From: Hoyosella sp. YIM 151337 | GTDB taxonomy: Bacteria; Actinomycetota; Actinomycetes; Mycobacteriales; Mycobacteriaceae | NCBI RefSeq assembly: GCF_026041215.1 | Contig: NZ_JAPEIQ010000028.1 | Location: 62,001 to 126,000, forward strand | Length of the DNA stretch: 64,000 nt | Direction of reading: 5' to 3' | Shown here: positions 53,482-63,274 of the stretch, in pieces | How positions within the stretch are numbered: position 1 is the stretch's first letter | Layout: the number at the start of each line of letters is the position of its first letter | The notes under the pieces: generated by a model | What the model was told of the DNA's origin: nothing | The model's database searches: none | What the model saw: the letters and a program-made list of their open reading frames with translations, nothing else | Program-made: the position numbers and the translations under genes

Positions 53482-54327
53482 TCAGCCCCGCTCACCGTCG
53501 ATCGACTGGCTCAGAGCGATGTGGGAGTTCGCTTGATCGATGACGTCCTCAACCTTGAACCTCAGCGCCTGGAGCGCGTCGGTCCCCAGGTACAGTCGTG
53601 AAGGAGGATCCGGCATCCGGGTGAGCTGCACGAACGCCTCAGCCACCAGTCTCGGATCTCCGCCTTGGTTGTGGTTGAGGCGGCCGTAACCAGCCATGGC
53701 CCTGCGGACCTGAGGATAGGCAGACCGCGTTGCCTCCTCGGCACCCTGTGAGGAACTGGGATCGAGGAAGTCGGTGCGCACTCCTCCTGGACACACCGCG
53801 GTGGCATGGACCCCGAAAACGGCAAGCTCAGCGGCCAACGCCTCAGTCAGCATCAACACCGCCGCCTTCGTCGCGGAGTAGATGCCGGTGGCGGGCCCCG
53901 TGACCGAGGCCGAGATCGATGCGAGATTGATGACGTGACCCTTGCGTTGTTCACGCATGACAGGAAGGACCGCGCGCTGGACGGCGAGCACGCCCATCAC
54001 GTTGACGTCGAAGTTGCGGCGCACCGCTTCGTCGCTGAGTTCCTCGACCGATCCCAACAGCGAGTAGCCGGCGTTGTTCACGAGGACGTCGATCCGCCCG
54101 AACCGGTCCAGTGCCTGATCAACGGCATGCCGGATGGAGACGCTTTCAGGGATGGTCATCTCCACTGCCAGGAAGTCATCCGTCTTCTGGATCTTGCCCG
54201 CGAAGTCGCCAGGCCGTCGCGACGTGGCGACGACCCGGTCGCCGACTTCGAGCGCGGCGCGGACAGTCTCCAGGCCGATGCCTTTGGACGCTCCGGTGAC
54301 GAACCAGACCCGCCGTTCCCCGCTCAC
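53482..54327 (-). CDS. short-chain dehydrogenase/reductase
   Basis: 281 residues. Cofactor motif TGASKGIG, NNAG, and the catalytic YSATK (Tyr-x3-Lys) with the Ser three turns before (LASISAS). Classical SDR fold with an Arg after strand 2 (ATSRRPG), suggesting NADP(H). Substrate unknown; may interconvert the ketone for the monooxygenase with its alcohol. GTG at 54327 overlaps the DJ-1-like gene by four bases. It converges on the AraC gene. Confidence 0.9.
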   Translation of the reverse strand: MSGERRVWFVTGASKGIGLETVRAALEVGDRVVATSRRPGDFAGKIQKTDDFLAVEMTIPESVSIRHAVDQALDRFGRIDVLVNNAGYSLLGSVEELSDEAVRRNFDVNVMGVLAVQRAVLPVMREQRKGHVINLASISASVTGPATGIYSATKAAVLMLTEALAAELAVFGVHATAVCPGGVRTDFLDPSSSQGAEEATRSAYPQVRRAMAGYGRLNHNQGGDPRLVAEAFVQLTRMPDPPSRLYLGTDALQALRFKVEDVIDQANSHIALSQSIDGERG

Positions 54328-55187
54328 CGCAATGACCCTGCCGCGGCCTCAGCGAGAACGTCGACAGCGAGCTTGCCGAGAGCGTTGGCTGCAAGAGGGC
54401 TGTCCCCCGTCACCACCAGTCGGTCCCGATGGACTCCGCCCGTCATGTCATCGTTCACCACGGTGATCCCGCGTTCGCGCAGGGTCTTCGAGAGCAACCA
54501 GGTCATGCGCGCGGGCAGATAGCCGATGTCCACATTAGCGCCCTCGTCGAGCGCATCGGGGAAGGCACAGACGCTGTACCCGGCAAACCGGTTGTTTCCA
54601 TCGCGGTCGCGGGCTGCGAGGAACGCGGCGGGACCGTGACACAGCGAAATTACTACCCGGTCACTGTCGAGCGCCCATGTCAGCACTGCCCCGATGTCGG
54701 GGTCGTCAGCCATGTTGATCATGGCGCCGTGTCCACCCGGCACGAACACCGCTGCGTAGTCAGAGTCCGGGCCGAGTTCGTTCGCGATGACTGTGGAGAG
54801 CTTCTTGGGATTCTCGGTCTTGGGTCGCAGACGTTCGTAGATTCCCCGAACCGCTTCATCCTCGGCGGGAAAGGCCCAGAACTCATACTTCACCGGGTTG
54901 CCTGACGACGTGGCAACCTCGACGTCATAACCTGCGGCCTCCAGGTGCAGAACGGGGAGCAGGGTCTCGACCGGGTGGTTGCCGGTCGAGAACAGACGGC
55001 CGTCCTGAACGGGCAGGTACCGCTCGTCGGCGCCGATCAGCAGGACCTTGCGCCGGGCAGCGCTCGTCCGCTCGTGCTCGGCTCCGTCGTAGTCAGTGCG
55101 CGGCGGCACGTACTCGCCGAGCGAGTAAGCCGAGGGGAAGTAGGCGTTCTTCTCAGCGCGGTCCGGGGTCGGTTCCTTCGATGCCAT
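54324..55187 (-). CDS. DJ-1/PfpI (Hsp31-like) superfamily protein
   Basis: 287 residues. The nucleophile Cys lies in VISLCHGPAAFLAARD after VFVPGGHGAMINMADD, and a Glu-containing N-terminal stretch precedes. It is of the longer Hsp31/HchA size, with a domain insertion (FSTGNHPVETLLPVLHLEAAGYDVEV and PAEDEAVRGIYERLRP), so glyoxalase III or holdase/deglycase activity is plausible. ATG at 55187 with GAGG nine bases upstream is chosen over the frame to 55256. Its first 70 residues resemble the 48315 remnant, so the window once held a second long copy. Translationally coupled to the SDR gene. Confidence 0.87.
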   Translation of the reverse strand: MASKEPTPDRAEKNAYFPSAYSLGEYVPPRTDYDGAEHERTSAARRKVLLIGADERYLPVQDGRLFSTGNHPVETLLPVLHLEAAGYDVEVATSSGNPVKYEFWAFPAEDEAVRGIYERLRPKTENPKKLSTVIANELGPDSDYAAVFVPGGHGAMINMADDPDIGAVLTWALDSDRVVISLCHGPAAFLAARDRDGNNRFAGYSVCAFPDALDEGANVDIGYLPARMTWLLSKTLRERGITVVNDDMTGGVHRDRLVVTGDSPLAANALGKLAVDVLAEAAAGSLR

Positions 55188-55794
55188 CTCAACAGTCCTC
55201 CGTATGTCTCGGCAATGGGCGTCCCCTATTTCACTGGTCGTCGGCGATCTACCCAAGTGGTTCGCTCACAAACCGTTCGGCGGAGCTTTGTGGCCGAGTC
55301 ACCCCACCATGGGGTGGGAGCGAAGACACCAGCTGACGGCTAGAACCGTTCACGCCGGCTACGGCGCGCACTTTCGGCGTTACAGTGCCCTGGCGAAGAT
55401 CGGCCTCGAGGTCCGGCGTGACTGTCGAGGGCTCGAGGTATCGGGAGCCAAGGGCAGCAACGTGCCTTGCGGCACCAGTCGGCGCGTGGATCCTCATCGG
55501 CCCAGGCCGTGCGGAGACGAGGACCCTGCGTCTGGATCTGCCAGGGATCGCTGGAAAGAGAGACGCCCAAATCCGCGGCCCTCGGTGTTCCTCGGCGGGC
55601 TGAAGGTCGCCGTCCACTGCCCCAGAAGGGTCACCTCGTAAGTAAACGCCTCTCGTGCGAGCCAGCCTGTGTTCGATGACCCGAACATGTTGTCGGACAA
55701 CGAAACAGCGCGTGACAGGATGGCGAGATCTCTCCAGCATGGCGAAGCCTACTGCGCCACAGGGAGAGCGGATGCTGGACGCTTTCCTGCGAGC
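55188..55794. other. 607-bp gap without a convincing gene
   Basis: Frames on both strands are open here but none has a family resemblance that I can see, and the minus-strand frames overlap one another in different phases, which suggests decayed or non-coding DNA. An inverted repeat CACCCCA-CCA-TGGGGTG lies at 55300-55316, about 115 bases ahead of the DJ-1-like gene, and may be an operator for that gene pair. Confidence 0.5.
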
Positions 55795-57000
55795 CTATCC
55801 GGTGTAGGGCCGTTCGCGGCGCAGCTCCTCACGTGCGATTGACCGCCGGTGAACTGCGTCCGGCCCGTCGACGATCCGAAGAACACGCGCCCAGCTGTAG
55901 AAATACGCGAGCGGGAAGTCGTCGCTGACCCCTGCGCCACCGAACACCTCGATCGCCCTATCGATGACTTTCGTCGCCATGCTGGGCGCGGCCACCTTGA
56001 TTGCCGCGATTTCGGTCGCCGCGCCCTTTGCCCCGTACTCGTCGATCAACCACGCCGTGTGCAGGACAAGCAGGCGTGCCTGGTTGATCTCGATGCGTGA
56101 CTGAGCGATCAGGTCGCGGACAACACCTTGCTCGGCAAGCAGTCCGCCGAAAGCTTCGCGGTTCTGCGCACGATCGATCATCAGCGACAACGCGCGCTCT
56201 GCCATGCCGATAGCGCGCATGGCATGGTGAATGCGCCCCGGCCCTAGGCGGGCCTGGGCGATCATGAATCCGTCGCCCTCCGCTGCAAGGATATTCGCTG
56301 CGGGTACCCGAACGTTCTCGAGCACGATCTCCGAGTGACCATGCTGGTCCTGGTATCCGAAGATCGGCAGATGACGGACGATCTGCACCCCTGGGGTGTC
56401 ACGCGGCACAAGGACCATGGACTGTTGCCGATGCGGCGCCGCGGCAGGGTCCGTCTTTCCCATCACGATGAAAACCTTGCAGCCGTCGTCAGCTACCCCA
56501 GTGATCCACCATTTACGGCCGTTAATAATGTATTCGTCCCCGTCACGGACGATTGATGTGGTGATATTACGTGCATCCGAACTCGCAACCGCCGGTTCTG
56601 TCATCGCAAACGCGGAGCGGATCTCCCCGGCGAGAAGAGGCTCGAGCCACTGAGCCTTCTGTTCGTCGGTGCCGAACATGTGCAGAGTCTCCATGTTCCC
56701 GGTATCCGGCGCGGCACAGTTGATGGCTTCCGGCGCGATGACCGGGGACCACCCAGAGATCTCAGCGATTGCGGCATATTCCGTGTTGGACAGGCCTGAG
56801 ACGTCGGGAAGAAACAGGTTCCAGAGCCCGCGCCGCTGCGCTTCTTCCTTGAGGCGGTCAAGGACCGGCGGCCGTTCGTGCGCCCCATGTTCCGAGCGCC
56901 ATTGCTGGTACTCAGCTTCTGCCGGAAATATGTGTTCACGCATGAACTCCCACATGCGCGCGGATAGTTCCTCGGTACGAGGCGACTTGGCAAAATCCAT
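55795..57000 (-). CDS. acyl-CoA dehydrogenase, ACAD10/ACAD11-like
   Basis: 401 residues. Typical acyl-CoA dehydrogenase order: AFAMTEPAVASSDARNITTSI (FAD/substrate), WWITGVADD, ARLGPGRIHHAMRAIGMAERAL, REAFGGLLAEQGVVRDLIAQS, and IEVFGGAGVSDDFPLAYFYSWARVLRIVDGPDAVH. The RLGPGRIHH and GAGVSDDFPLA stretches place it near the ACAD10/11/LvaC branch rather than in straight-chain FadE enzymes. In that branch the enzyme processes 4-phosphoacyl-CoA made by an APH-type kinase, and exactly such a kinase is encoded two genes upstream. ATG at 57000; 24 bases after the SDR gene. Confidence 0.9.
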   Translation of the reverse strand: MDFAKSPRTEELSARMWEFMREHIFPAEAEYQQWRSEHGAHERPPVLDRLKEEAQRRGLWNLFLPDVSGLSNTEYAAIAEISGWSPVIAPEAINCAAPDTGNMETLHMFGTDEQKAQWLEPLLAGEIRSAFAMTEPAVASSDARNITTSIVRDGDEYIINGRKWWITGVADDGCKVFIVMGKTDPAAAPHRQQSMVLVPRDTPGVQIVRHLPIFGYQDQHGHSEIVLENVRVPAANILAAEGDGFMIAQARLGPGRIHHAMRAIGMAERALSLMIDRAQNREAFGGLLAEQGVVRDLIAQSRIEINQARLLVLHTAWLIDEYGAKGAATEIAAIKVAAPSMATKVIDRAIEVFGGAGVSDDFPLAYFYSWARVLRIVDGPDAVHRRSIAREELRRERPYTG

Positions 57001-57024: not shown

Positions 57025-57792
57025 TTAGTGACCCGACACGCCGCCGTCGACAGCTAGTGTTGTGCCGGTCACGTACGAGGAGGCATCCGAGGCGAAGAAC
57101 ACGACCGCTGCGTCGAGTTCATGCTGCTGGCCAAGCCGCTTCAGTGTTGAGTGCTGATCGATGAAGGCGGCCAGCACATCGTTTGGTATCTCTGCTGTCA
57201 TTTCGCTGGCGAAGTAGCCTGGGGCAATCGCGTTCACGCGAATTCCCCGGCGGCCGGACCATTGCTGGGACAGATCCCGTGTCAACCCGATAACGCCAGC
57301 TTTGCTGGCCGCGTACGCCGCCTGGGGCGCGTAGGACTTGATGAGGCCAAGGATGCTGGCGATGTTGACGATGCTTGCACCTGGCTGCATACGCTTCGCA
57401 CACGCTTGCGCCATCCAGTAGGCGCCCAGGAGGTTAACATCGATTACCTTAAGGAACTCCCCGGGCTCCTCACGCAGTGCGGGCACTGCGGTACCGACAC
57501 CCGCGTTGTTGACCAACACATCGAGACGCCCGAACTGCTCGATGGCAGCTGCCGCCAGGTCGTCACACTCGTTCGGATCAGTGACGTCGACCCGGCGGTA
57601 TGCCACCTTGCCGCCAGCCTCGCCGATTTCACTTGCGAGCGAGGCCAGCGCGTCTTCGCGTCGCGCCCCGAGGACGACTGATGCGCCGGCACCGGCGAGC
57701 GCGCGGGCGAACCCCGCACCGAGTCCAGAACTCGCCCCGGTGATGACAGCAACTTTTCCATCGAGCCGGAACCGGTCAATGATCGACCTCAT
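57025..57792 (-). CDS. short-chain dehydrogenase/reductase (FabG-like)
   Basis: 255 residues. TGASSGLGAG cofactor motif, VNNAGVG, catalytic YAASK with Ser in IVNIASILG, and the C-terminal GTTLAVDGG typical of FabG-type SDRs. The position between an APH-type kinase and an ACAD10/11-like dehydrogenase corresponds to LvaD of the levulinate pathway, which reduces a 4-oxoacyl-CoA to 4-hydroxyacyl-CoA; a 3-hydroxyacyl-CoA role is the main alternative. It overlaps the kinase gene by four bases. Confidence 0.92.
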   Translation of the reverse strand: MRSIIDRFRLDGKVAVITGASSGLGAGFARALAGAGASVVLGARREDALASLASEIGEAGGKVAYRRVDVTDPNECDDLAAAAIEQFGRLDVLVNNAGVGTAVPALREEPGEFLKVIDVNLLGAYWMAQACAKRMQPGASIVNIASILGLIKSYAPQAAYAASKAGVIGLTRDLSQQWSGRRGIRVNAIAPGYFASEMTAEIPNDVLAAFIDQHSTLKRLGQQHELDAAVVFFASDASSYVTGTTLAVDGGVSGH

Positions 57793-58826
57793 CGCAGTTC
57801 CTCCAGTTTGGTTAGGCCTTCTTTGGCGAGACGGACGACATCAGCGTCGAAGTTGCCGAAATGCTGGCCGCCCATCGTCCCGGCTTCCGAACGAGCTGTG
57901 ACGCCCTGAATGATCACCGCAAATTTGAAGCGCGCGAAGGCTTCATAAAACGGCACGGCGCTGACGTCGGCGCCCGTCGCGGCCGCATAACGGTCGAGGA
58001 GATATGACCGTGGCGGGAACCCGTTCTGCGACGAGACGGTCGGTACGAGCGGGATTTGCGCTTCGCCGCGGTGCGGCCAGTAGAAGAGTAGGAGTCCAAG
58101 GTCCGCGAGCGGATCACCGAGGGTCGACAGCTCCCAATCGAGCACCGCAGCAACCCTCCCCGGATCATGCGGGTGCATCAGGCAGTTGTCGAGCCGGTAG
58201 TCACCATGAACAATCGCCGCAGTCGAACTCTCGGGGAGCCCAGCCGCAAGTGCCGCTGCGAGCGCGTCGAGTTCCGGCTGATCGATTCTCCGGGTCTTTT
58301 CGGACTGCGCAGTCCAGCGGCGCACCTGGCGGGCGAGGAAGCGATCCGCCCTGCCAAACTTCTCCAGCCCAACCCTCGATGGCTCGATGGTGTGAAGCTC
58401 AGCGAGAACGTCGACGAGCGCGTCGGCCATCTTGTGTCGGTCATCCGCTCCGTCCGCGTAGCCCGCAGGCACTGAATCACGGATGACATGTCCGTCAACC
58501 CTCTCCATCACATAGAAGGGGACGCCCAGCGTTTCGCCACCGAGGTCTGCAAAAAGAATGCGTGCGACCGGCACTTTCGTGCCCACGAGAGCCCGTTGTA
58601 CACGCACTTCGCGTTCCATGTCGTGCGCGCTTGGAAGCAGATCGCCCTCGGGTGGTCTGCGCAGCACAAGATGACCGGCGTTTGAAGCGAGCGCGAATGT
58701 CAGATTCGACTTCCCTCCGGCAATCAATTCGGCGCTAAAGGACCGCCATTCGTCGTCTCCTGTCGCTTGGGATAAGACTCTGGCGAGCCGGTCGGGCTGG
58801 AGCAATCTAGTCATAGCGTGATCCAC
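57789..58826 (-). CDS. APH-family kinase (aminoglycoside phosphotransferase-like; ACAD10/LvaA type)
   Basis: 345 residues. Phosphotransferase motifs are complete: an N-lobe with SNLTFALASNAGHLVLRRPP, the catalytic loop IVHGDYRLDNCLM (His, Asp, Asn) and the metal-binding DWELSTLGDPLADLG. The HGDYRLDN-x-DWE pattern is that of the APH domain fused to the dehydrogenase in ACAD10/11 and of LvaA, the 4-hydroxyacyl-CoA kinase, not of resistance enzymes. GTG at 58826 with GAGAGGA six bases upstream is chosen; ATG at 58814 is possible. It leads the operon and diverges from the XRE-TetR gene. Confidence 0.9.
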   Translation of the reverse strand: MDHAMTRLLQPDRLARVLSQATGDDEWRSFSAELIAGGKSNLTFALASNAGHLVLRRPPEGDLLPSAHDMEREVRVQRALVGTKVPVARILFADLGGETLGVPFYVMERVDGHVIRDSVPAGYADGADDRHKMADALVDVLAELHTIEPSRVGLEKFGRADRFLARQVRRWTAQSEKTRRIDQPELDALAAALAAGLPESSTAAIVHGDYRLDNCLMHPHDPGRVAAVLDWELSTLGDPLADLGLLLFYWPHRGEAQIPLVPTVSSQNGFPPRSYLLDRYAAATGADVSAVPFYEAFARFKFAVIIQGVTARSEAGTMGGQHFGNFDADVVRLAKEGLTKLEELR

Positions 58827-58874
58827 GAGTGTCCTCTCGAGTCCATGGCTGCGGCCCGCAGCGGCTAACGGTAC

Positions 58875-58894
58875 GACCGATCGATCGATCGGTC
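58875..58894. promoter_or_regulatory. 20-bp perfect palindrome between the kinase operon and the XRE-TetR gene
   Basis: GACCGATCGATCGATCGGTC reads the same on both strands. It is 48 bases before the kinase GTG (58826) and 162 bases before the regulator start, in the position of an operator for the divergent regulator. TetR proteins bind palindromes of this size. Confidence 0.65.
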
Positions 58895-58923
58895 TTTGGT
58901 CTCGAGGACGATGATTCGGCTAG

Positions 58924-58945
58924 CTGTATATCCAGGTCAATACAG
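58924..58945. promoter_or_regulatory. second inverted repeat in the same divergent gap
   Basis: CTGTAT (58924-58929) and ATACAG (58940-58945) are separated by ten bases, a half-site spacing seen with many dimeric regulators. It might be the site of the second DNA-binding domain of the XRE-TetR protein or overlap its promoter. Confidence 0.4.
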
Positions 58946-59056
58946 TGAAGCAATCTCTGTGAGTCAACAACAATTCGTTTTGCTGAGCCGAACAAAGATT
59001 AGAGAACAGTACAACTGTCGACGGGGATCGGAAGATCAACCTGGAGAAGCCCTAGA

Positions 59057-59932
59057 TTGTTTGATGTGCCTGAACACAATGCACGTATCACACCGATTGG
59101 AGCACAGATCGCGACGGTCCGGCGGCGTGCAGGAATCTCGCTGCGTCAACTCGCACGCCAAATCGGGATAAGTCCGGCTGCGCTCAGCGCCATCGAGAAC
59201 GACAAATCCAGAGTCACTGTCGCGCGCCTGCACGACATAGCCGAGGCCTTAGCCACAACCGCGCCCGCCATTCTCCAAGAACAAGCAGGAAGAGAGGTCG
59301 ATTCAGGAAGCTCGAGAGGCGTCATTCCACGCGCCAGATCACGTGCCTGGCGACAGTTCGCACCTCTTGAGTTCGATCCCGTCCTCGCAGGGGCGACCTC
59401 GGCGTTCGTTCGTTTGGGCTATCACGGCGCGACTGTTCGCAAAATCGCCGATGCCGCGGGCATGAGCGTACCTGGCGTCTACCACCACTACCCCAGCAAA
59501 CAAGCCTTGCTCGTCACGATCCTCGACCTGACTATGGAGGACCTTCAATGGCGGGTTGACGCGGCACGTGCTGAGGCAGGGGTGAAGCCGTCGGACCGAT
59601 TCGCGAGGATTGTTGAGGCCCTCGCGCTCTTTCACGCAGAACGGAGAGACCTCGCGTTCATCGGTGCGAGCGAGATGCGCAGCCTGCACCCGCCCGATCT
59701 CGGCCGCATCACGCAGATGCGTGCATACATCCAGCACCTTCTAGAGGAGGAAGCGCTGACCGCGATCGCCGCAGGAGAGTTCTGGTCCCGGAATCCGCAA
59801 AACGCCACCAGGGCGATCTCAACGATGTGCACCTCACTGGCACAGTGGTATCGCTCGGATGGGCCAATGCCAGCAGGCCAGATCGCAGCGCAGTACGCTG
59901 CATATGCGGTCGCGATAATGCGCACTCCATGA
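59057..59932 (+). CDS. regulator with N-terminal XRE-type and second TetR-type DNA-binding domains
   Basis: 291 residues. Residues about 12-70 form an XRE/Cro-type helix-turn-helix (IGAQIATVRRRAGISLRQLA, ISPAALSAIENDKSRVTVARL). After a linker of about 40 residues, a TetR helix-turn-helix starts (TSAFVRLGYHGATVRKIADA, MSVPGVYHHYPSKQALLVTIL), followed by an all-helical ligand domain. Two different DNA-binding domains in one chain are uncommon. The frame begins TTG/ATG at 59057; the true start may lie slightly downstream. It diverges from the kinase/SDR/dehydrogenase operon and is its probable repressor. Confidence 0.85.
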   Translation: MFDVPEHNARITPIGAQIATVRRRAGISLRQLARQIGISPAALSAIENDKSRVTVARLHDIAEALATTAPAILQEQAGREVDSGSSRGVIPRARSRAWRQFAPLEFDPVLAGATSAFVRLGYHGATVRKIADAAGMSVPGVYHHYPSKQALLVTILDLTMEDLQWRVDAARAEAGVKPSDRFARIVEALALFHAERRDLAFIGASEMRSLHPPDLGRITQMRAYIQHLLEEEALTAIAAGEFWSRNPQNATRAISTMCTSLAQWYRSDGPMPAGQIAAQYAAYAVAIMRTP

Positions 59933-60431: not shown

Positions 60432-61652
60432 TCAGGACTGCGCAATCCGCAGCTTGATAGCAACGAGCAAATCAAGGACAGTGCGGAAGCCGCGCAGGTC
60501 TAGTCCAGTCCGTTCCGATATCCGGTCCAACCGGTGGTATGCGGTGTTGCTGTGCACGAAAAGCGCTTCCGCAGCAGCCTTCGCATTGAGATCCGCCGCA
60601 ACGTATGCGTTGAGCGTGTCGATATACACTCGGTCACCCGCTAAGTCCTCGTCAATGAATCGGCGCACGCGCTCCGGAATCAGCCCCCACGCCACCTCGT
60701 CACCGCGCGAAATCAGGTAGTCGAAAGCGGTCAGATGCTCAAGCGCCTGCATTCCCGGCCTTCCACGCAAGTACCGCAGCGCCAGCTTCGCTTCCTCGTA
60801 GCCCTGAGGTGCTGCGCCAAGCCCAGACTGCGCAGTGCTGAGCCCCAAAGATAACTCCACGCAGTGTGAGCGCAATTCTTCGATCACGATAGACAGTTGA
60901 GAGAGAACATCCTTTGTCCCGCGGGACAACTGAAGAGGCAATACCCCGATAATCTCGTTGCGGCGCATAGTGAGTAGTCCACCCGGGTAGTTGGCCGCGG
61001 CGCGACCCATGACCCGCACCAACGTGTTCCGCTCGCCGGTGAAATTCACGACCCGACCAACCAGTATCGCGAACCCCCCGCTGGCGGAGAGTCCAGCCGT
61101 CTTTAGCGCGGCCCGGCGCGGCCCCGTCTTCGGCTGATTGCCGGCGAGCAGGTCTTCAACCAGATCGCGAGTGGCGCGCGCAGCATCCGCGATGAGAAAC
61201 CGTTCAGCCTCCAAATACGCTTCCGCTGCCGCGGTCGTACCTATTTCGATGACGTCCATCATGTGCCCCATCGCATCGAATGCCGCGAGTCTGAGGCTCA
61301 CGTCGTGCTCAAGCAGATCCCTGATCGATTCCCACAACGTAATTTGGGCGACTCGAAAGGCGCGCAAGAAGTCCGGCAGCGAAATTGCTTGGGTGACACG
61401 GCGCATCGCCTGATCCACTGTAAAGCCAAACTCATCTTGCTGCGGCTTTCGGTTCTCAGCGAGCGAACTGGTGAAGAGCCTGAACACATGCATGCAGTGC
61501 GCTGTGATATCACCACGCAGTTCGTCCTTCGCCGGGCTCGCGCCGTAACTCGGGACTTCCTCAAATACACGGTTCGCAGCGGCGCGCGCAATGTCCGGCG
61601 ATGCTTCGTCGATAGTACGGGCAAGGCGCTCCCCTTCCCTCTCATCCGGCAT
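60432..61652 (-). CDS. PucR-family transcriptional regulator (second paralogue)
   Basis: 406 residues. It has the same plan as the gene at 43406: QAISLPDFLRAFRVAQITLWESI in the sensor part, AERFLIADAARATRDLVEDLLAGN in the middle, and the C-terminal PucR helix-turn-helix (DLNAKAAAEALFVHSNTAYHRLDRI, RTVLDLLVAIKLR). ATG at 61652 with GGGAGGAC upstream is chosen over the open frame to 61826. It diverges from the acyl-CoA ligase gene across 128 bases that contain a clean inverted repeat, so it probably controls that gene and itself. Confidence 0.9.
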   Translation of the reverse strand: MPDEREGERLARTIDEASPDIARAAANRVFEEVPSYGASPAKDELRGDITAHCMHVFRLFTSSLAENRKPQQDEFGFTVDQAMRRVTQAISLPDFLRAFRVAQITLWESIRDLLEHDVSLRLAAFDAMGHMMDVIEIGTTAAAEAYLEAERFLIADAARATRDLVEDLLAGNQPKTGPRRAALKTAGLSASGGFAILVGRVVNFTGERNTLVRVMGRAAANYPGGLLTMRRNEIIGVLPLQLSRGTKDVLSQLSIVIEELRSHCVELSLGLSTAQSGLGAAPQGYEEAKLALRYLRGRPGMQALEHLTAFDYLISRGDEVAWGLIPERVRRFIDEDLAGDRVYIDTLNAYVAADLNAKAAAEALFVHSNTAYHRLDRISERTGLDLRGFRTVLDLLVAIKLRIAQS

Positions 61653-61673
61653 GAGCAGTGTCCTCCCTGTACG

Positions 61674-61694
61674 TGGTGTTACCGAGTAACACCA
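61674..61694. promoter_or_regulatory. inverted repeat between the second PucR gene and the acyl-CoA ligase gene
   Basis: TGGTGTTAC (61674-61682) and GTAACACCA (61686-61694) are perfect nine-base arms around CGA. The site is 22 bases before the PucR start. Nearby, CCAACATTGT occurs twice (61692-61701 and 61735-61744), adding possible half-sites. This is a good candidate operator for the PucR protein. Confidence 0.65.
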
Positions 61695-61780
61695 ACATTG
61701 TTTTTCCTCCTCTATGGCGTGTGTCGCATTTCGGCCAACATTGTGCGCTGTCAGATTCCGCAAGAATGGAGCCCGCGCAC

Positions 61781-63274
61781 ATGAGCAACCTCGCAACATC
61801 TTTCCTTGCTGCCGCAAACGCCACACCGGGGGCCACGGCTATCCGGCTTGACGACGAGACACTGACTTACTCGAAGCTCGAAGCCGCGGCCCGGCGCGTA
61901 GCGGGTCTGCTAGTTCAGCGTGGTATCAAGCCAGGCGACACCGTGGGGATCATGGTTCCCAACGTTGCGGCCTTCCCTGCGCTCTATTACGGAGTTCTCC
62001 TTGCTGGCGGGGTCGCCGTTCCGATGAACCCGCTGCTGAAGAACCGTGAAATCGCATATTATCTGGGTGATTCCGGTGCGAAGCTGGTGTTCGCATGGCA
62101 CGCCGTTGCAGCGGAAGCCGAGGCTGGGGCTCTCGAGGCCCACGCCGGTGTTGTAAAGGTTGATGAGTCTTTCCTTTCGGATATTTCGGCCCCGCCGCTC
62201 GCCGGCGTTGCTGACCGCGCCGAGGACGACACGGCCGTCATCCTCTACACCTCCGGCACGACCGGGCATCCTAAAGGCGCGGAACTCACGCACTTCAACC
62301 TGCGCCGCAACGCTGATCGATTCGCGCGGGACTGGCTGAAACTTTCCGCGAACGACGTGGTTCTCGGATGCCTGCCGCTCTTCCACACGTTCGGTCAGAC
62401 CGTATCGATGAACTGCACGCTGTTCAGCGGTGCGACACTCGTGCTGCTCCCCCGCTTCACTGGCGATCTCGCACTTCAGTCGATCCAGAAGGAGAAGGTG
62501 ACGGTGTTCGCTGGCGTGCCGACGATGTACTCGGCGATGATCGAGGCGCCAGGCAGTGCGGATGCCGACGCGTCGACACTGCGTCTGTGCTGCTCTGGCG
62601 GTGCAGCCCTCCCTCTCGACACGCTCACGTCGTTCGAAGGCAAGTTCCGCGCGGTGATCATCGAAGGATACGGACTTTCCGAAACGTCACCGGTGTGCTG
62701 CTTCAACCCACCGGAGGGAGAGCGGAAGATCGGCTCCGTCGGACTCCCGCTCGACGGTGTGGAAATGCGCGTTATCAATGACGACGGTGCGACGCTCCCG
62801 CCCGGCGAACTCGGTGAGATCTGCGTACGAGGCGAAAACGTGATGAAAGGCTACCTCGGCCGCCCCACGGCGACCGCCGAGGCATTCATCGACGGCTGGT
62901 TCCGCACCGGCGACATCGGCAAGCAAGACGATGATGGGTACTTCTACATCGTCGACCGCAAGAAGTCGCTCATCATCCGCGGCGGCTACAACGTCTACCC
63001 GCGCGAGGTCGAAGAGGTGCTGTACGAGCACCCTGATGTCGTCGAGGCGGCTGTGATCGGAATTCCGCATGCAGCGCTCGGGGAAGAGGTCGGTGCCGCA
63101 ATCGCCGTACGCCCAGGGGCAACAGTCGACACCGCGGAAATTAGCGAATTTGTGAAAGCCCGTCTCGCCGCGTACAAGTATCCGCGCCAGGTGTGGGTGC
63201 TCGACGAACTGCCCAAGGGGCCTACCGGGAAAATCTTGCGCCGCGAGGTGCAGCCGCCCGCCAGCGCACGCTGA
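61781..63274 (+). CDS. AMP-dependent acyl-CoA ligase (long-chain fatty acid-CoA ligase type)
   Basis: 497 residues. Adenylate-forming motifs are all present: ILYTSGTTGHPKGAELTH (P-loop), GYGLSETSPVCCFNPP, GWFRTGDIGKQDDDGYFYIV, DRKKSLIIRGGYNVYPREVEE and the C-terminal catalytic Lys in PTGKILRREV. It activates a carboxylic acid with ATP and CoA; the size suits medium/long-chain or aromatic acids. ATG at 61781 with GGAG nine bases upstream is preferred over ATG 61766. It is 39 bases before a PHA synthase gene, so activated acids may be directed to polymer. Confidence 0.93.
   Translation: MSNLATSFLAAANATPGATAIRLDDETLTYSKLEAAARRVAGLLVQRGIKPGDTVGIMVPNVAAFPALYYGVLLAGGVAVPMNPLLKNREIAYYLGDSGAKLVFAWHAVAAEAEAGALEAHAGVVKVDESFLSDISAPPLAGVADRAEDDTAVILYTSGTTGHPKGAELTHFNLRRNADRFARDWLKLSANDVVLGCLPLFHTFGQTVSMNCTLFSGATLVLLPRFTGDLALQSIQKEKVTVFAGVPTMYSAMIEAPGSADADASTLRLCCSGGAALPLDTLTSFEGKFRAVIIEGYGLSETSPVCCFNPPEGERKIGSVGLPLDGVEMRVINDDGATLPPGELGEICVRGENVMKGYLGRPTATAEAFIDGWFRTGDIGKQDDDGYFYIVDRKKSLIIRGGYNVYPREVEEVLYEHPDVVEAAVIGIPHAALGEEVGAAIAVRPGATVDTAEISEFVKARLAAYKYPRQVWVLDELPKGPTGKILRREVQPPASAR

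Follow-up and report, generated by a model that had tools for sequence, protein, structure and literature searches.

As a rule a bacterial repressor recognizes a single type of site. TetR-type acyl-CoA sensors such as KstR2, AibR and PfmR have a TetR helix-turn-helix, a C-terminal domain and a palindrome next to an acyl-CoA operon. The regulator analyzed here is like them in all these respects (helix-turn-helix, C-terminal domain and a conserved palindrome near an operon place it in the TetR family) and differs from KstR2, AibR and PfmR in having an XRE domain added at its N-terminus and a further palindrome of another type. Two domain families here go with two conserved palindromes, called below the T box (TetR-type) and the X box (XRE-type).

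Cro/XRE repressors bind a palindrome as dimers. The XRE fold of ClgR, SinR, P22 c2 and DdrO is present in the fusion protein as well (Z 10.6-12.5), and this fold together with a conserved recognition-helix region places the protein, as a putative XRE-type DNA binder, in the Cro/XRE family too; in contrast to the four repressors, its XRE domain is attached to a complete TetR repressor with a ligand-binding domain. Two unlike DNA-binding domains in one protein are known from lambda integrase, which unlike the fusion is a recombinase. In GalR-type loops one repressor holds two like sites around a promoter; the sites of the fusion protein are unlike, and looping by it is a possibility.

Double-TetR regulators are a further point of comparison. 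In Mce3R two TetR units reportedly read one non-palindromic operator jointly (PMC11667970). Mce3R and other double-TetR regulators are like the fusion in having two DNA-reading domains in one chain, in being actinobacterial and in being connected with lipid metabolism; the fusion differs from Mce3R in using two different domain families with two separate palindromes, and with one TetR_N and one XRE domain it falls outside the double-TetR class. Another regulator, as characterized in its report (PMC7413915), has two like helix-turn-helix motifs and is of a different kind. In literature searches limited to open-licence papers, no title or abstract opening among the papers listed names an XRE-TetR regulator, and phrases that join the two family names retrieved no paper. 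As to metabolism, a study of ACAD10/ACAD11 and bacterial LvaA/LvaC describes phosphorylation of 4-hydroxyacyl-CoA followed by elimination of the phosphate (PMC11342911).

The regulator gene was found in the window (the whole stretch of 64,000 nucleotides from Hoyosella sp. YIM 151337 that was analyzed). An earlier note on this DNA had proposed that one chain combines an XRE domain with a complete TetR repressor, and this is borne out by Pfam matches above cut-offs and by an AlphaFold2 model. The features of the gene are as follows (residues are those of the listed ORF unless said otherwise).

59066..59932, forward strand: XRE-TetR fusion regulator, 288 aa; leaderless GTG start at 59066 probable
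59096..59263, forward strand: Cro/XRE helix-turn-helix domain, residues 14-69 (HTH_3, PF01381, 46.8 bits, cut-off 23; PF13560, 44.6 bits; AlphaFold2 model)
59288..59323, forward strand: flexible linker joining both DNA-binding domains (pLDDT <50, model residues 75-86)
59384..59515, forward strand: TetR_N helix-turn-helix, residues 110-153 (PF00440, 57.3 bits, cut-off 24)
59585..59917, forward strand: TetR_C_24 dimerisation and ligand domain, residues 177-287 (PF17932, 91.5 bits, cut-off 26.4)

The full-chain model, built with 54 aligned rows, has a mean pLDDT of 89.8; values are 91-97 in the XRE block, 89-98 in the TetR block and below 50 in the disordered linker. The closest structures to the TetR part are 3him (Z 22.4), KstR2 (20.3), AibR with isovaleryl-CoA (20.0) and PfmR (19.9). 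Modelled alone, the XRE part folds into five helices (mean pLDDT 87.2) and matches ClgR best (Z 12.5, rmsd 1.9 over 70 residues), with DNA-bound structures of P22 c2 repressor with operator (Z 11.0) and of SinR (Z 10.6) also among its matches. The XRE fold by itself is no proof of DNA binding, since about the same score (Z 10.6) is reached by HppE, an enzyme with an XRE-like domain. A candidate for a solved full-length relative, 4ich (Saccharomonospora viridis), aligns to the family profile from the XRE region on; it is not among the XRE-only profile matches at E 0.001, and its structural match begins at chain residue 98.

Lack of recognition-helix residues in the first domain had been named earlier as grounds for giving up the two-domain idea. 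The region of the recognition helix turned out to be conserved: S36, S41 and E44 are invariant in the 54 rows, and T39 and A42 are present in at least 90% of them. The window protein deviates at position 39, having A (codon 59180-59182 counted from GTG 59066) in place of T. One may speculate that A39 accompanies the departure of the window X box from the consensus in one half.

The window protein belongs to a conserved actinobacterial family of XRE-TetR regulators. Matches with E values no worse than 1e-55 occur in 97 of 401 genomes drawn from the taxonomic family; they include the XRE part in 96 of the 97. Within the genus the fusion is present in two of three genomes, and the third has a TetR-type match only. 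A scan of genome contigs with the single protein gave no relatives; an alignment-based search gave 488, the best 80 of which include Nocardia, Rhodococcus, Mycobacterium, Antrihabitans, Amycolatopsis, Pseudonocardia, Streptomyces, Nocardioides and Sphaerisporangium. At the level of the phylum, matches at 1e-45 (TetR-only ones among them) were obtained in 11 of 396 genomes, a low count that is no measure of spread, as six candidates per genome listed were scored.

As the earlier note had stated, the regulator gene diverges from a kinase operon, whose genes are on the opposite strand.

57789..58826, reverse strand: APH-type kinase, like the ACAD11 kinase domain (PF01636, 160.6 bits)
57025..57792, reverse strand: short-chain dehydrogenase, SDR (PF13561, 207.1 bits)
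55795..57000, reverse strand: acyl-CoA dehydrogenase, ACAD11 type (ACAD11 8v3u, E 6.4e-134)

The kinase matches 9o56 (APH, E 1.5e-52), 3dxp (E 3.8e-50) and then ACAD11 8v3v (E 1.1e-47). For the dehydrogenase, ACAD11 8v3u is followed by 4hr3 (putative ACAD, E 3.1e-125) and, after a wide gap, by 4u83 (E 3.8e-44); medium- and short-chain ACADs match at E 8.6e-43 or weaker. Thus both parts of ACAD11, kinase and dehydrogenase, are matched by enzymes of the operon. In difference from the Lva and ACAD11 systems, these enzymes are encoded by separate genes together with an SDR gene, and regulation would be by an XRE-TetR fusion. Because an ACAD11-like kinase and dehydrogenase occur as separate genes of one operon, the operon likely serves a 4-hydroxyacyl-CoA pathway; the locus suggests that actinobacteria have such an ACAD11-type pathway, with the regulator as the likely switch.

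Genes linked to the regulator vary among relatives. Linkage to an ACAD relative is seen in 64 of 80 loci; for an APH relative the count is 54 of 80. Some loci have an acyl-CoA ligase in place of kinase and dehydrogenase. Likeness to KstR2 and AibR, taken together with the linked ACAD and APH genes, suggests that the effector is likely a CoA thioester. The operon of the window is followed by a gene of glyoxalase III (HchA; 54324-55256, reverse strand; above the NCBIfam cut-off), and an HchA relative is located on the same operon side in Mycobacterium loci L044-L046.

Two palindromes recur in fusion relatives: the X box, TGTTCRG-N5-CYGAACA, at the start of the regulator gene or upstream of the operon promoter, and, a short way into the target operon, the T box, CCGANCGNTCGNTCGG. 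Both patterns were drafted by eye from upstream regions partly overlapping the first set of 80 named loci (5 of the 80 repeat loci used in drafting), so that the counts in this set are not independent: X with up to two mismatches in 76 loci versus 2 of 800 shuffles, and T with up to one mismatch in 59 loci versus 5 of 800 shuffles. With the patterns fixed beforehand, a second set of 80 loci (two of which, L193 and L196, repeat named ones) had X in 54 loci versus 0 of 400 shuffles and T in 25 loci versus 3 of 400 shuffles. A good X was missing from the upstream stretch scanned in 26 loci of this set and a good T in 55; in L202, L218, L263 and L267, at the least, the X box is just beyond that stretch. 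In a third set (24 loci, mostly near named ones) X was found in 23 and T in 22.

The X-box miss in L046 was due to a stretch that was too short, and the box is present. Locus L115 is an exception, with five mismatches upstream and no X with up to two mismatches in the whole locus; its upstream region resembles coding sequence by eye. The X and T patterns could be used for seeking targets of this regulator family.

In the window the candidate sites and the operon promoter are positioned as follows.

58875..58894, no strand: T box, TetR-type candidate operator; perfect 20-bp palindrome with core CCGATCGATCGATCGG at 58877-58892
58911..58940, reverse strand: probable operon promoter TTGACC, 18 nt, AATCAT (consensus match only)
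58976..58994, no strand: possible second, degenerate X site CGTTTTGCTGAGCCGAACA (tentative; three mismatches, one perfect half)
59058..59076, no strand: X box, XRE-type candidate operator TGTTTGATGTGCCTGAACA, over the regulator start codon (two mismatches)

Two different inverted repeats had been claimed for the gap between the genes, 58827-59056. One strong repeat, the T box, is indeed inside; the best XRE-type repeat is just outside, overlapping the gene start, and what the gap itself holds of this type is the weaker site at 58976-58994. The T box has no mismatches, and its score was reached in 0 of 300 dinucleotide shuffles of the 412-bp upstream stretch. The 4.9-Mb genome has two exact copies, one in the window and one upstream of a TetR-only paralogue on contig C45. 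The window X box has two mismatches to the family consensus TGTTCRGNNNNNCYGAACA, a score reached in 1 of 300 shuffles of the same 412 bp; it is among the weaker ones in the family, and its place and phase are common to the X box of 31 other regions. In the same genome X sites with up to two mismatches number 87, versus 29 for a control pattern, so that the window X sites are supported by position and not by uniqueness. Tracing further targets of the window regulator by means of the X box proved too unspecific for the same reason.

The -35 element of the operon promoter (TTGACC, 58940-58935) has its centre 53.5 bp from the T-box centre (family median 50.5 bp). The weak X site is centred 100.5 bp away from the centre of the T box; it is upstream of the -35 by 47 bp, which is also the family median; a site as good as this one appeared in 14 of 500 shuffles of 58827-59056. 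The spacing between the T box and the better X box, 182.5 bp, is outside the range of 63.5-133.5 bp in which 81 of 82 thinned pairs fall, and the site at the family-typical distance from the window T box is the degenerate one. A strong pair is found in Rhodococcus oryzae (L065), with a spacing of 89.5 bp.

In divergent layouts X is at the start of the regulator and T is closer to the operon. Mycobacterium loci L044-L046 are arranged otherwise: the operon is downstream in the same direction, and the gap before it contains a second X together with T. This layout prompted a test for X-T pairs behind the regulator in 20 refetched loci, namely 19 of the 55 second-set loci without a good upstream T and a congener's locus, with ~3 kb added downstream. 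Several of the refetched loci are close relatives of each other. A pair behind the regulator was found in 12 of the 20; among the other eight, one has X only, one has T only and six are without T (one of these, L288, has X ~2 kb behind the regulator). The order of X and T around the operon promoter is kept in divergent and in downstream operons.

T and X have GTCAA, the core of a -35 element, between them in 76 of 82 pairs, versus 6 of 82 equal stretches beyond T; X-T pairs thus bracket the likely operon promoter. Measured from GTCAA, T has its median position 50.5 bp downstream and X 47 bp upstream, a spread narrowed by the choice, where several GTCAA fell between the boxes, of the one nearest a fixed distance. 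The domains, the reading frame, both conserved palindromes, the way in which each palindrome accompanies the presence of its domain, and the placement of the pair around promoter-like sequences are the observations from which the following reading sets out.

We consider it probable that the fusion protein is a repressor using both domains, TetR on T and XRE on X, that it is released by acyl-CoA and that it represses its own gene. In its architecture, a flexible linker connects the XRE domain with the N-terminal end of a TetR repressor of the acyl-CoA type. The TetR dimer would recognize the T box ~50 bp downstream of the centre of the operon -35, just inside the transcribed part; the XRE domains would recognize the X box at the regulator's start and, as a shared or second copy, upstream of the operon promoter. 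As long as effector is lacking, the protein would keep the presumed 4-hydroxyacyl-CoA operon repressed from T, with help from the X site, and would act at the X box as repressor of its own gene; the TetR half would be released by a CoA thioester that belongs to the pathway. Binding, repression, the effector and a differing response of the two halves to it are what we infer here. Several observations weigh against this reading: the imperfect X box of the window and its unusual distance from T, the second-set loci with no good X or T in the stretch scanned, the 31 of 191 regions (surveyed for start codons, see below) that have no X with up to two mismatches, the eight refetched loci that show no complete pair behind the regulator, and the variation in linked genes.

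The two halves may act apart or together. If they divide the labour, the XRE half would autorepress at X and the TetR half would repress the operon at T, each bound independently; this is a real possibility, short of probable. It fits with the position of X at the regulator's own start in most loci, with the 182.5 bp that part the better X of the window from T, and with loci L280-L282, where an acyl-CoA ligase gene behind the regulator is opposite in direction and only an X near the start was found, with no T. The pairs placed before operons that do not share the regulator's promoter (the 12 of 20 refetched loci and L044-L046) speak against such independence. So do X half-sites within 30 bp of the T box, which were found for 40 of 100 thinned T boxes against 4.6% expected from shuffled flanks (147 T sites were reduced to 100 by removing those with identity of 72% or more).

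Weak signs of helical phasing in the X-T spacing point in the same direction. The best period is 10.5-11.2 bp. With 94 and with 68 representatives, 0 of 5000 draws from a smoothed null reached the observed periodicity; the p values of smaller sets were 0.023 (45 representatives), 0.084 (30), 0.067 (20) and 0.16 (11). As the signal weakens when relatives are thinned, helical phasing of the spacing is suggestive only; Rayleigh values, which take no account of relatedness, were set aside.

Acting together, one dimer or tetramer would hold T by its TetR half and X by its XRE half in a small loop over the promoter; the effector would open the TetR end only, and the XRE tether would allow quick re-closing. 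We regard this heterobivalent arrangement as tentative and somewhat doubtful, bridging of two unlike operators around a promoter being possible. If it holds, relatives with X half-sites flanking T would have a composite operator for one dimer with four DNA-binding domains. Half-sites flank the T box on both sides in 10 of the 100 thinned T boxes, as if one dimer used all four domains. By eye, CTGAACA ... T ... TGTTCAG or similar is seen in L003, L048, L052, L060, L064, L067 and L110; the window T box is without flanking X half-sites. In L026, L034, L039, L231, L245, L268 and L271 a half or palindrome of TGTTCA/TGAACA type adjoins or overlaps the T box, at a centre distance of 10.5 bp in L231, L245, L268 and L271, and may form a composite operator with it. 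The pair of unlike operators is also offered for genetic circuits.

The repressor reading has to be weighed as well against one in which the XRE half, bound upstream of the -35, contacts RNA polymerase as an activator and the TetR half represses. Around 47 bp upstream of the -35 is a usual place for an activator site, and this is the median position of X relative to the operon -35 core; yet an X box over the regulator's own start codon could hardly be an activating site, and we think an activator role unlikely.

The assignment of the X box to the XRE domain and of the T box to the TetR domain is best argued from relatives that have the TetR part only. None of 23 such relatives (a set that includes near-identical pairs of loci) has an X box with up to two mismatches, three having one with three mismatches; a T box with up to one mismatch is present in eight of the 23. 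In a tree of TetR parts with 75 hand-picked rows (49 fusion loci, 25 TetR-only loci and the window), all 50 fusions are in one group of 51 rows (87/79, not strongly supported). The single TetR-only row in this group, L142, is nested in a subgroup of five supported 100/99; it is without XRE domain and without X box, has a T box with one mismatch and seems, judging by the tree, to have lost the XRE domain. Absence of X from TetR-only relatives, L142 included, is the strongest argument that the XRE domain reads X and the TetR domain reads T.

Binding of the X box by a different XRE protein, with the XRE part of the fusion serving for oligomerisation only, is in our opinion very unlikely. The fusion is a putative binder of the X box, and an XRE-like fold is also found in HppE, an enzyme; however, the box is absent in all 23 TetR-only relatives, L142 with its apparent loss among them, and the recognition-helix region is conserved. 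Exact X boxes argue in the same sense: 61 genomes of the family have 17 (the reversed pattern has none), of which 11 are no more than 1.6 kb away from a fusion gene (10 of these within 60 bp) and six are elsewhere. That one fusion protein reads two kinds of site, as the earlier note had suggested, is thus a well-supported inference from sequence comparison, with two conserved operator types of which the XRE-type one tracks the XRE domain. The family makes a natural test case for the gain of a second DNA-binding domain, the spread of its operator and, in L142, what goes with loss of the domain.

The TetR-only paralogue on contig C45 (C45:41858-42552; L005, L155) is 43% identical and has an exact T box upstream and no X box. 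With this exact box common to both, cross-talk of the window regulator and the paralogue at T is conceivable. At C45:532900-533823 (L007, L013) the same genome has a 402-aa open frame with two TetR helix-turn-helix matches, which looks like a double-TetR (Mce3R-like) regulator.

The X box bears on the translation start too. The ORF was given earlier as 59057-59932; its start is probably GTG 59066, 9 nt further in. This codon occupies the middle of the X box and comes 7 nt after the following element.

59053..59058, forward strand: probable -10 element TAGATT, leaderless promoter of the regulator (TANNNT spacing in relatives)

We surveyed start codons in 191 regions (relatives unthinned), of which 32, the window included, have ATG or GTG exactly at the X-box centre, 128 have an X box that holds no start codon and 31 have no X with up to two mismatches. 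TANNNT is found 7 nt before the start codon in all 32 and at the equivalent place in 5 of the 128. This geometry probably reflects a leaderless transcript, and since all 32 start-in-box regions share it, GTG 59066 is favoured as the most likely start of the regulator. TTG 59057, with GGAG at 59043-59046, is possible and less likely.

The earlier note had held that translation starting after the XRE part would overturn the two-domain idea. The stretch from the XRE part to the TetR helix-turn-helix has no in-frame ATG, GTG or TTG, and the first one beyond GTG 59066, TTG 59414, is within this helix-turn-helix; barring a CTG start (59141 or 59228), a protein made without the XRE part would have a broken TetR part as well. 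We find it hardly credible, therefore, that the XRE part is an annotation artefact in front of an ordinary TetR protein translated from behind it, for which speaks only that TTG 59057 is not the likely start codon, and against which stand TTG 59414 as the next in-frame start, inside TetR_N, and an XRE sequence conserved in 54 aligned rows.

Elsewhere in the window, a PucR-type regulator gene (GGDEF_2 + HTH_30; 60432-61826, reverse strand) diverges from an acyl-CoA ligase gene (61658-63274, forward strand). The listed starts of these two genes overlap, so that at least one true start is probably further in.
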